Source: Lachnospiraceae bacterium (GTDB lineage Bacteria > Bacillota > Clostridia > Lachnospirales > Lachnospiraceae). From it: 34,720 nt of DNA. The position numbers were made by a program, and so were the translations under genes. This document shows, one piece after another, positions 5,702 through 8,844 of the stretch. The stretch's first letter is position 1. The number at the start of each line of letters is the position of its first letter. The stretch spans positions 1 through 34,720 of the forward strand of contig JAGAMG010000031.1 of assembly GCA_017624835.1 (NCBI GenBank). Direction: 5' to 3'. Under the pieces are notes generated by a model that did no database searches, was not told the origin of the DNA, and saw only the letters and a program-made list of their open reading frames with translations.

Positions 5702-6319
5702 TTAGCGGTAGAAACGGAATACACCGAACACGGTTCCAAGAATTTGGCAATCATCAACAATAATCGGATCCATGGTATCATTTTCCGGCTGAAGACGAAT
5801 GTGACCATCCTCTTTATAAAAGGTCTTAACCGTTGCAGAATCATCAATTAAAGCGACTACGATGTCACCATTGTGAGCTGTGTTTTTGGAATTTACAAAT
5901 ACACGGTCGCCGTTAAAAATACCGGCATTAATCATGGAATCACCACGAACATTTAATATGAAGGATTCCCCCTTGGGAACTACATCTGCCGGCACAGGGA
6001 AGTACTCCTGAATATTTTCTTCTGCAAGAATGGGCTGTCCGGCCGCCACATTGCCAATAACAGGAAGACTAACCATTTCGGTACGAACCATCTGAAAGCT
6101 GTCATCACAGATTTCAATGGCACGGGGCTTGGTAGGGTCACGTCGAATATAGCCGTTTTTTTCCAGAGTTTCTAAGTGAGAGTGAACGGAAGAGGTGGAC
6201 TTTAAATTAACAGTCTCACAAATTTCCCGTACAGTAGGGGGATAGCCCCTCTTTAAAATTTCTTCTTTAATATAATCCAGAATTTCCTGCTGTTTAGCAG
6301 AGATTTTACCATAACTCAT
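5702..6319 (-). CDS. lexA: LexA repressor, SOS regulator with self-cleaving peptidase domain
   Basis: A 205-residue transcriptional repressor of the SOS response, inactivated by RecA-stimulated self-cleavage. The N-terminal winged helix (1-70) contains PPTVREI and the recognition helix [20 protein letters not shown]. The cleavage bond is Ala93-Gly94 within [13 protein letters not shown]. The catalytic pair is Ser128 (GDSM) and Lys165 (ATVKTF), so the S24 peptidase domain is complete. The start at 6319 has GGAGGATATAAC directly upstream. The gene diverges from a LysM/membrane protein gene across DNA rich in LexA boxes, some overlapping its own -35 region, so autoregulation is likely. Confidence 0.97.
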
Positions 6320-6396: not shown

Positions 6397-6425
6397 AGTA
6401 TAACATATGGATACGAAAAAAGCAA
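6397..6425 (-). promoter_or_regulatory. Putative lexA promoter
   Basis: On the minus strand, TTGCTT (6420-6425), a 17-base spacer and TATACT (6397-6402) lie about 78 bases upstream of the lexA start. The -35 overlaps a degenerate LexA box (6423-6436), which fits weak autorepression. Confidence 0.6.
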
Positions 6426-6449
6426 ACATATATTCCAAAAATATGTTCG
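6423..6449. promoter_or_regulatory. Two degenerate LexA boxes on the lexA side
   Basis: CAAACATATATTCC (6423-6436) and CAAAAATATGTTCG (6436-6449) match 11 and 12 of 14 positions of the Bacillus-type SOS box CGAACRNRYGTTYG, counted by eye. They share one base and lie at and just upstream of the lexA -35 element. Confidence 0.5.
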
Positions 6450-6456
6450 ATTTCCA

Positions 6457-6485
6457 TTGACAAGAGAATACATGTTCGGTATAAT
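6457..6485 (+). promoter_or_regulatory. Consensus sigma-A promoter of the LysM/membrane protein gene
   Basis: A perfect TTGACA (6457-6462), a 17-base spacer and a perfect TATAAT (6480-6485) form a textbook promoter. Such a strong promoter is usual for genes held off by a repressor, and a LexA box occupies its spacer. Confidence 0.88.
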
Positions 6486-6522
6486 ACACCTATAAGAACA
6501 AATGTTTGCGAACAAAGTTTCG
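6465..6522 (+). promoter_or_regulatory. Three LexA (SOS) boxes over the LysM gene promoter
   Basis: Box 1, AGAATACATGTTCG (6465-6478), lies in the promoter spacer. Box 2, AGAACAAATGTTTG (6495-6508), and box 3, CGAACAAAGTTTCG (6509-6522), abut each other just downstream of the -10. They match 12, 13 and 12 of 14 positions of CGAACRNRYGTTYG. Box 3 is also the core of the palindrome at 6508-6523. The adjacency of lexA and the spacing around the promoter make LexA control very likely. Confidence 0.8.
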
Positions 6523-6614
6523 CATGATACATAATAATTATATATCAAGTATATAGATAATATATATTACTATGAGAAAGGTTGGTTTTGAAAATGCAAA
6601 AGAGGGTATATGAT

Positions 6615-6980
6615 ATGACGGATAGAGAGATTAGAGCATATAAGAGAAAGTTACGCAGAAAAAAAGAAATCAGACGCAAGCTCATGATGGGACTTATGAC
6701 CTTTTGTCTGATTATGGTATGTGCTGTTTCCTATCATGCACTGCACTCTAATGCAAGTACTGTGGATGAGGAATTAAATTTTAAGTATTATACCAATATC
6801 ACCGTAGAATATGGTGAGACTTTATGGGATATTGCTGATAAATATATTGACTATCAGGAATATAAGGACAGGGCTGCTTACATTGCGGAGGTGCAGAGCA
6901 TTAATCATTTAAATGATGATGTAATCAGAGCCGGACAGCATTTGGTGGTTCCCTATTATTCCAATGAGTTTGTTAAATAG
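6615..6980 (+). CDS. Small membrane-anchored LysM protein, candidate SOS cell-division inhibitor (YneA-like)
   Basis: About 121 residues: a very basic N-terminus (REIRAYKRKLRRKKEIRRK), one membrane segment (about 29-47, MMGLMTFCLIMVCAVSYHAL) and a C-terminal LysM-type domain that begins at ITVEYGETLWDIADKY and ends near GQHLVVPYY. This is the layout of Bacillus YneA, the SOS-induced division inhibitor, which is also divergent from lexA. The basic end should stay in the cytoplasm, with LysM facing the cell wall. I prefer ATG 6615 because GAGGG (6602-6606) sits eight bases ahead. ATG 6594, in frame, would add seven residues but has only a distant GAAAGG. A TTG at 6582 is less likely. The function is inferred from architecture, position and LexA boxes. 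A general peptidoglycan-binding role is the alternative. Confidence 0.85.
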   Translation: MTDREIRAYKRKLRRKKEIRRKLMMGLMTFCLIMVCAVSYHALHSNASTVDEELNFKYYTNITVEYGETLWDIADKYIDYQEYKDRAAYIAEVQSINHLNDDVIRAGQHLVVPYYSNEFVK

Positions 6981-7031: not shown

Positions 7032-8093
7032 TTATTTTTTCTCGCGCAAGCGTACTACATTGGCAGCTTTACGGCGTCGTTCGTCTTCTTGAGCGGCATA
7101 GTGTTTTCTTGTGGTATTAACATCCTGATGTCCAAGAACGTCTGCCACCAGATAGATATCGCCGGTTTCCTGGTACAAAGTAGTTCCGTAGGTGCTTCGA
7201 AGCTTATGAGGCGTGATTTTTTTAAGCGTGGTTACTCTGGAAGCATACTTTTTTACTAGGTTTTCTACGGAACGAACTGCCATTCTGCGATTTTGCAGGG
7301 ACAGAAATAATGCATTTTCATGTCCTTCTTCCGGAATGATATGTTCCCGTTCCTCCAAATAATCCAAGAGAGCAGTTTCAACCTCTTCTCCGAAGTAAAT
7401 TACAGCTTCATATCCGCCTTTTCTTCGGATTTTTATTCCACCCACATCAAAATTGACATCTGTAATATCAAGTCCTACACATTCGGATACACGGATACCT
7501 GTTCCCAGTAGAAGTGTAAGGAGAGCAACATCACGTATTCTGGTTTTTTTGTGATATTCTAATTCTTTTTTGGTTAGCTTCGTACCTGCCTCCACCTGAT
7601 CAAGCAAAATAGCAACTTCATTAGGTTCCAGACGAATAATTTCTTTTTGATGTTTTTTAGGCATGGGTACAAGAGCTGCGGGATTTTTTTCTATCAGCTC
7701 ATTTTCAAAGTAGTAATTATAAAAGCTTCGTAGAGAAGCCAGCTTACGTTCTTTTCCACGTTCATCATTGGTGATATCCTTGCCGTCTTTTTGATACAAT
7801 GTAATATATTCCAAAAATTCTTCAATATCCATGCGGGTAAGCTGTGCCAAAATATCTAAAGATATGTCTTTTATATCCATTTTTGCACAAATACTGTTTT
7901 TGGTATGAAGAAATTCAAAAAACAATCGGATATCATAGGCATAAGCTAATCTGGTTCTTGTAGAAGTATAATCCTCAATACCCCTGAAATAGGTACGACA
8001 AAAGGAAGGCAGGGTATCAAGAACTGCTCTGAATTTTAAGATATTTTGTTTGTTTTGTTCATCATGGTAATTATCTGATTTTATTACTGCCAA
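7032..8093 (-). CDS. Tyrosine recombinase (XerS-like site-specific recombinase)
   Basis: A 353-residue tyrosine recombinase. The N-terminal SAM-like DNA-binding domain (about 25-140) is followed by the catalytic domain with Arg201 (GTGIRVSE), Lys225 (RRKGG), His296 and Arg299 (HKLR), His322 (GHQD) and nucleophile Tyr332 (KHY), so all active-site residues are present. The N-terminal layout and length recall XerS, the single chromosome-dimer recombinase of streptococci, more than XerC/D. No phage genes or attachment repeats lie nearby, so a housekeeping or regulatory role is more likely than prophage integration. The start is a TTG at 8093 inside the end of the upstream ttcA-like gene (23-bp overlap). 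The only upstream purine-rich stretch is a modest GGACGG, and no ATG is available near the N-terminus. Confidence 0.85.
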   Translation of the reverse strand: MAVIKSDNYHDEQNKQNILKFRAVLDTLPSFCRTYFRGIEDYTSTRTRLAYAYDIRLFFEFLHTKNSICAKMDIKDISLDILAQLTRMDIEEFLEYITLYQKDGKDITNDERGKERKLASLRSFYNYYFENELIEKNPAALVPMPKKHQKEIIRLEPNEVAILLDQVEAGTKLTKKELEYHKKTRIRDVALLTLLLGTGIRVSECVGLDITDVNFDVGGIKIRRKGGYEAVIYFGEEVETALLDYLEEREHIIPEEGHENALFLSLQNRRMAVRSVENLVKKYASRVTTLKKITPHKLRSTYGTTLYQETGDIYLVADVLGHQDVNTTRKHYAAQEDERRRKAANVVRLREKK

Positions 8094-8811
8094 AGTATTC
8101 CGTCCATCCTTTCAGGTTCCCGTTTTGGATTGCGGTAAACATTCTTTCTTTTACACCGGGATTTTCAAGATTTAACTGTCTAAGGAGATTTTTGATATAT
8201 TCTCTTTTAGTATGTCCATCAGCTGGGCAGGGGCTTTTTACTACGGGTACATTATATTTATTTACAAAACCAATTACATCCACCTCATTCATATACATAA
8301 GAGGTCTGATAACTGTTAAGTCCATTCTATCTAAATAGGTTACAGGGGAAAAGGTATGAAAACGACCTTCAAAAATTAAAGACATCAGCATGGTCTCTAC
8401 CACGTCATCCTTATGATGGGCGTAGGCTACTTTATTGCATCCGGTCTGTTTAATGGCTTCATTTAAAGCCCCTTTTCGCATTTTTGCACAAAGGGAACAG
8501 GGATTGCTTTCCTTGCGATCCTCAAAGATAATTTGGGCAATATCTGTTTTTACGACAGTATATTCCACCTGTAATTCCTCGCACAAGGCCTTTATTTTGT
8601 CCAAATTTAGATTTTGAAAGCCCAGGTCAACTGTAACAGCATGAATAGTAAAATGCTTGGGATAAAAGCGTTTCAGTCCATGCAGGGCATACAGAAGAGT
8701 AAGGCTGTCCTTTCCGCCGGATATGCCTACTGCAATTTTATCTCCTTCTTCAATCATATGATAATCGTCCACTGCTTTACGGACATAACTGAGTACCTGT
8801 TGTAATTTCAT
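8071..8811 (-). CDS. TtcA-like tRNA 2-thiolation protein (PP-loop ATPase)
   Basis: A 246-residue N-type ATP pyrophosphatase of the TtcA/TilS group, which activates a tRNA base with ATP for sulfur insertion. In TtcA this gives 2-thiocytidine at position 32. The PP-loop SGGKDS is at 31-36. Cys105 and Cys108 (CSLC) with Cys195 (SPCPADG) match the cysteines that hold the iron-sulfur cluster in TtcA-type enzymes. The AHHKDD block (131-136) is also family-typical. The start is ATG 8811 with AAAGGA six bases ahead, and a GTG five codons upstream lacks such support. The reading frame overlaps the recombinase start by 23 bases, so the two are probably co-translated. The base modified in this organism is inferred only from the family. 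Confidence 0.9.
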   Translation of the reverse strand: MKLQQVLSYVRKAVDDYHMIEEGDKIAVGISGGKDSLTLLYALHGLKRFYPKHFTIHAVTVDLGFQNLNLDKIKALCEELQVEYTVVKTDIAQIIFEDRKESNPCSLCAKMRKGALNEAIKQTGCNKVAYAHHKDDVVETMLMSLIFEGRFHTFSPVTYLDRMDLTVIRPLMYMNEVDVIGFVNKYNVPVVKSPCPADGHTKREYIKNLLRQLNLENPGVKERMFTAIQNGNLKGWTEYFGSNKIR

Positions 8812-8844
8812 AGAAATTCCTTTCACAATATATATTCTTCATTT

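Follow-up and report, generated by a model that had tools for sequence, protein, structure and literature searches.

The window analysed here is an entire contig of 34,720 bases from a 2.9 Mb assembly that is 85% complete. It contains lexA (5702–6319, minus strand) and a gene for a small LysM protein (6594–6980, plus strand), which diverge from a common gap of 274 bases. The lexA product (205 aa) scored 242 bits against TIGR00498 (cut-off of 111), carries a LexA DNA-binding domain and an S24 peptidase domain according to the domain search, and shares 119 identical residues with the Bacillus velezensis LexA in the alignment. It has the Ala93-Gly94 cleavage pair as well as Ser128 and Lys165. The divergent position of the LysM gene relative to lexA, as given in the initial annotation, was thereby confirmed. 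The open reading frame of the LysM gene has its stop at 6980 and offers three in-frame starts (TTG at 6582, TTG at 6588 and ATG at 6594); counted from the ATG, the protein is 128 aa long. It should be noted that the start of the feature had been set at 6457, but this position belongs to the promoter.

This promoter is of the perfect sigma-A type (TTGACA-17-TATAAT, 6457–6485, plus strand), with 12 of 12 positions matching and a 17-base spacer, exactly as had been claimed. Five LexA-type boxes were found in the gap, of which three lie at the promoter of the LysM gene and two are closer to lexA. One box lies between the −35 and −10 elements (6465–6478), and an abutting pair follows just past the promoter (6495–6508 and 6509–6522), each of the three with 1 mismatch to GAACN4GTTC. 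Compared with CGAACRNRYGTTYG, these boxes match at 12, 13 and 12 of 14 positions, respectively, in agreement with the counts and places reported before. The two touching boxes on the lexA side (6423–6436 and 6436–6449), with 2 mismatches each to GAACN4GTTC, had been left out of the earlier count of three. Over the whole window, the enrichment of the 14-mer is only mild (60 occurrences with up to 3 mismatches versus 42 on average after shuffling, with an sd of 6.75). Within the 274-base gap, 3 sites have at most 1 mismatch to GAACN4GTTC versus 0.048 per dinucleotide shuffle, and 5 sites have at most 2 mismatches versus 0.67 per shuffle. Hence, it is the clustering in the gap, rather than the box frequency over the window, that sets the LexA-type boxes apart.

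A search for lexA-linked LysM genes across Lachnospiraceae had been proposed as a check, and it showed the pair to be conserved. Besides the window, 89 family loci were sampled (29 of the best matches, the 40 that followed them in the list and 20 taken from its weak end), and lexA was adjacent and divergent in 80 of them. All 80 gaps contained a site within 1 mismatch of GAACN4GTTC, with a mean of 2.9 versus 0.07 in shuffled sequences, and the exact GAACN4GTTC was present in 50 gaps versus 0.4% of shuffles. A promoter of at least 10/12 for the LysM gene was found in 70 gaps, a LexA-type box inside the promoter spacer in 62 (raw count) and an abutting box pair (at most 2 mismatches) anywhere in the gap in 74, compared with a mean of 0.6 for mononucleotide shuffles. 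Since the promoter, the spacer box and the abutting pair recur in the family gaps, the layout is conserved beyond the motif alone.

Self-repression is common among lexA genes, and two of the five boxes are found on the lexA side. The boxes could therefore act in lexA autoregulation alone, with the LysM gene a mere neighbour outside SOS control. This explanation is barely credible given the box within the LysM promoter spacer, both here and in the 62 relatives. Moreover, of the 9 family loci where lexA is out of reach (one of them at a contig end), 8 still carry one or more boxes of no more than 1 mismatch, upstream of the LysM gene or at its estimated start. An unlinked homologue that is the second copy in its genome (L013) had no box near it. 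In 16 genomes with lexA and without a LysM homologue, a total of 17 boxes was counted in the 350 bases before lexA, about one each, as against 2.9 per gap (median gap length of 200) where the LysM gene is present, which indicates that the extra boxes accompany the LysM gene. No consistent candidate for another small inhibitor was found beside lexA in these 16 loci, which were drawn from 22 chosen genomes without a match. In two genomes without the LysM gene (L193 and L195), a frame starting like ttcA adjoins lexA, and it looks as if the LysM gene was simply lost there; the window itself has a TtcA-like gene, scoring below the cut-off, at 8071–8826.

The earlier description of a small, basic protein with a LysM domain and a single membrane segment was borne out. 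The basic N-terminal tail (residues 1–29, 6594–6680) is predicted to be cytoplasmic. In comparison with three close relatives, third-codon changes were the most frequent, and therefore the tail is coding. It is net positive in 115 of the 120 proteins of the set, the window protein included. The membrane segment comprises approximately residues 30–48 (6681–6737), with a hydropathy of 1.85 over 19 residues and hydrophobic alignment columns; 119 of the 120 proteins had a hydrophobic segment reaching 1.6 or more, and in 105 of the 120 the positive charge was greater before it than after it. These features predict a single membrane segment with the tail inside and the C-terminus outside. A small-xxx-small pattern was considered for the membrane segment but not adopted, because one of the two positions is occupied by His in the window protein. 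The LysM domain (residues 69–120, 6798–6953; Pfam PF01476, E 2.3e-9) is thus predicted to be extracytoplasmic, and the Pfam scan of the protein revealed no hydrolase domain. The AlphaFold2 model, with a mean pLDDT of 93, consists of one long helix followed by the LysM fold.

Against the NCBIfam YneA model NF010723, the protein scored 57.4 bits (E 1e-15, positions 7–86 of the 87 in the profile). The equivalog cut-off is 60 bits, and under the NCBI rule the protein is therefore "YneA-like" and not YneA. The initial interpretation is supported in part: LexA control and likeness to YneA are backed by synteny, operators and the model match, the score being below that required for the name. Direct similarity to Bacillus YneA is restricted to the LysM region. 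Homologues were further compared in an alignment of 67 proteins, a selected set hand-picked by length and taxon from 108 lexA-divergent proteins. At E 1e-3, 17 of the 67 also match the general LysM protein model and 8 the SafA model, as would be expected if the gene encoded a LysM protein of the generic wall or spore kind (SafA or SpoIIIM type) with lexA as a neighbour by happenstance. We regard this as very improbable: each of the 67 matches the YneA model at the same threshold, YneA is the family that most members match, and linkage to lexA is frequent both in the family and among the best phylum matches.

Regarding the distribution of the gene, a single-sequence search found a homologue in 233 of 299 genomes of the same bacterial family, including 202 of the 245 with a completeness of 90% or more and no more than 5% contamination. 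The remaining 66 of the 299 gave no match in this search, so the LysM gene is dispensable in the family. The profile search reached 260 family genomes, 27 of them with E above 1e-7 and resembling generic LysM proteins. The nearest named relatives of the protein, on which the placement in Lachnospiraceae was based, were found in metagenome-assembled genomes (Lachnospiraceae bacterium, Lachnoclostridium sp. and Acetatifactor sp.) at 58–66% identity. Among seven named loci, five were lexA-divergent, and two (L126 and L127) had neither lexA nor boxes. L126 is a homologue in a Butyrivibrio MAG, with neighbouring frames that we take to be nusA and rimP. At the phylum level, the YneA model matched 281 of 299 genomes at E 1e-3, although it also matches E. 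coli and other control genomes, which means that the 281 are not all YneA-like; 47 of the 299 were above the cut-off. The 30 best phylum loci included 22 that were lexA-divergent (BLAST) and 6 more whose flanks contain lexA; the other two are short loci at contig ends and have no lexA. Boxes were sparser at the phylum loci, with 17 of the 22 lexA-divergent ones having a box of at most 1 mismatch.

A gene for a tyrosine recombinase (7032–8093), XerS/XerC/XerD-like and under all the cut-offs shown, is convergent to the LysM gene in the window. A relative of it occurs in the flank of 37 of the 80 family loci; in 19 it lies downstream in convergent orientation, and in 17 it is downstream and co-directional. 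In B. velezensis, a recombinase-family gene follows yneA. The combination of lexA, the LysM gene and a recombinase gene also occurs in MT835555.1 (L170, "Bacteriophage sp.", unverified), whose four boxes are identical to those of one family locus (L024); despite the phage label, this entry looks like a bacterial contig.

LexA-type boxes were also found elsewhere in the source genome, before recA, ruvA, a PcrA-like helicase gene and TIGR03916, a repair-linked radical-SAM gene. Two of them lie 76 and 48 bases ahead of the recA match; the box near TIGR03916 sits between this gene and asnA, and either gene could be served. This check covered 11 regions chosen by eye among about 100 listed of 105 places. 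Four regions precede repair genes and one precedes an uncharacterised gene (L157); the remaining six are either within open frames or ahead of an HPF-type gene (L161) or other genes. Genome-wide, GAACN4GTTY is not enriched (105 occurrences versus 247 for the reversed pattern), so isolated matches elsewhere carry little meaning. In view of this and of the choice by eye, the boxes in the remainder of the genome serve as support and not as proof. The uncharacterised gene (239–1174 of locus L157, from contig 34 of the source genome, minus strand) encodes 311 aa and has two LexA-type boxes about 330–360 bases upstream, with a tyrosine-recombinase-like frame on the opposite side of the boxes. Neither NCBIfam (at E 1e-5) nor Pfam (at E 0.1) gave a match for its product, and the gene is possibly a new SOS gene.

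In B. subtilis, the membrane segment of YneA contacts FtsW, and its LysM domain binds nascent septal glycan, whereupon septum synthesis stalls (PMC13396833). B. velezensis YneA (LAZ96_RS20325, NF010723) stood in for B. subtilis YneA in our alignment, with an inferred numbering offset of 2 that fits eight published residues. Based on this alignment, YneA residues D46, T47 and I81, which are important for glycan binding, correspond to E75, T76 and I111 of the LysM protein. No clear counterpart was seen for K5, E6, F10, V11 and F14, which direct YneA to midcell and FtsW, in a part of the alignment where the register is uncertain; most of these residues are also missing from a lexA-linked LysM protein of Cytobacillus. 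Taken together, the Bacillus and Lachnospiraceae proteins share a gene position divergent to lexA, LexA-type boxes in the intervening gap, one membrane segment, an extracytoplasmic LysM domain (predicted here) and aligned glycan-binding residues. They differ in the basic N-terminal tail, which is longer in the family (a median of 23 residues before the hydrophobic window versus 5 in B. velezensis YneA), in the extended C-terminal tail, which the window protein does not have, and in the FtsW-targeting membrane residues, which are not visibly common to both.

Other small division inhibitors encoded near lexA are known. According to passages of PMC6851548, YneA is joined by SosA (Staphylococcus), ChiZ (Mycobacterium) and DivS (Corynebacterium), which are likewise SOS-controlled, single-pass proteins. 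As described there, SosA and DivS differ from the window protein in having no LysM domain, and ChiZ differs in its reported hydrolase activity. The closest case in print is Clo1313_1450 of C. thermocellum, which passages of PMC8457756 present as YneA-like in domain structure and divergent from lexA, with a conserved LexA site upstream, also in its orthologues. The same passages suggest that a divergent arrangement of lexA and a YneA-like gene is perhaps common. The remark in the initial annotation that its author knew of no described inhibitor in this clostridial lineage thus needs to be supplemented. Clo1313_1450 belongs to another clostridial species, the likeness to our protein is by description only, and the passages give no division phenotype. 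A C. difficile lexA mutant forms filamentous cells, as stated in passages of PMC4689574, and neither LysM nor yneA occurs in the main text of a study that predicted the LexA regulon of C. difficile in silico (PMC4234289). Among the matches listed in the open-licence literature, there was no experimentally studied SOS division inhibitor for Lachnospiraceae and no work on this protein.

A conserved motif of the signal-peptidase type was overlooked in the initial annotation. Recognition by signal peptidase I follows the −3/−1 rule, and Ser52-Asn53-Ala54 (6747–6755, plus strand), which lies past the membrane segment and ahead of the LysM-side motif KYYTSI, is a candidate site. Ala54 is present in 55 of the 67 aligned homologues, often with a small residue at 52, and the rule holds at 52/54 in 59 of the 67, whereas none of the 17 other pairs of equal spacing between 45 and 64 exceeded 34. 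In unaligned family proteins, [AVST]xA occurred within 14 residues past the hydrophobic core in 83 of 89, versus a mean of 46 (maximum of 59) for shuffled segments. In the phylum set, the excess was not clear by the same test (11 of 24 versus a mean of 6 and a maximum of 12). Residues 51–60 form a hinge that is the least confident stretch of the AlphaFold2 model.

The strong conservation of this motif just past the hydrophobic segment, the long and basic n-region and the confinement of YneA similarity to the LysM domain would also suit an SOS-induced secreted protein, whose signal peptide is cut quickly and whose LysM domain, once free, covers or shields the wall during damage while septation continues. 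YneA itself is said to undergo signal-peptide cleavage (Mo and Burkholder, 2010). In passages of PMC6051672, overexpressed YneA is released into the medium, and the full-length form is thought to be the active one. Release is therefore compatible with a role in division, and known inhibitors occupy the same lexA-divergent position (passages of PMC6851548); on balance, we consider a secreted wall protein unlikely. For a division inhibitor, by analogy with the release of YneA, a cut after Ala54 could free the LysM domain and lift the division block, which would make it a natural off switch. A bolder reading, though less likely than not, is that Lachnospiraceae have a distinct YneA subtype with a timer, in which the long basic tail and the conserved signal peptidase site would provide a membrane contact other than that of Bacillus YneA and then a self-switch-off by LysM release.

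Based on the above results, the LysM gene is best explained as encoding a LexA-repressed, YneA-type SOS division inhibitor, with a probability of about two in three. LexA control and likeness to YneA are well supported, as far as sequence comparison goes, by the synteny, the predicted operators, the NCBIfam YneA model and the boxes at repair genes; inhibition of division is the more conjectural part. We suggest the following scheme. In undamaged cells, LexA dimers on the spacer box and the abutting pair would block transcription, as the sequence and its conservation suggest. DNA damage generally activates RecA, which leads to the self-cleavage of LexA, and the LysM gene would then be expressed. 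The basic tail and the hydrophobic segment are predicted to anchor the protein in the membrane so that the tail stays inside and the LysM domain faces outwards. By analogy with B. subtilis YneA (PMC13396833), the membrane segment may dock on the divisome, possibly on FtsW, and the LysM domain may bind nascent septal glycan, so that septum synthesis would stall. Finally, signal peptidase, by a cut after Ala54, and perhaps also a CtpA-type protease, which is encoded in the source genome, may separate or destroy the LysM part, after which division would resume.

Lachnospiraceae are dominant gut bacteria. The lexA/LysM pair provides a concrete and conserved candidate in this family, with predicted operators, membrane segment, glycan-binding residues and cut site. 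Counts are now attached to a pairing that had been noted in print for C. thermocellum. The kind of protein is already known from YneA and the C. thermocellum gene, and the Lachnospiraceae protein is a well-supported new candidate member of it.
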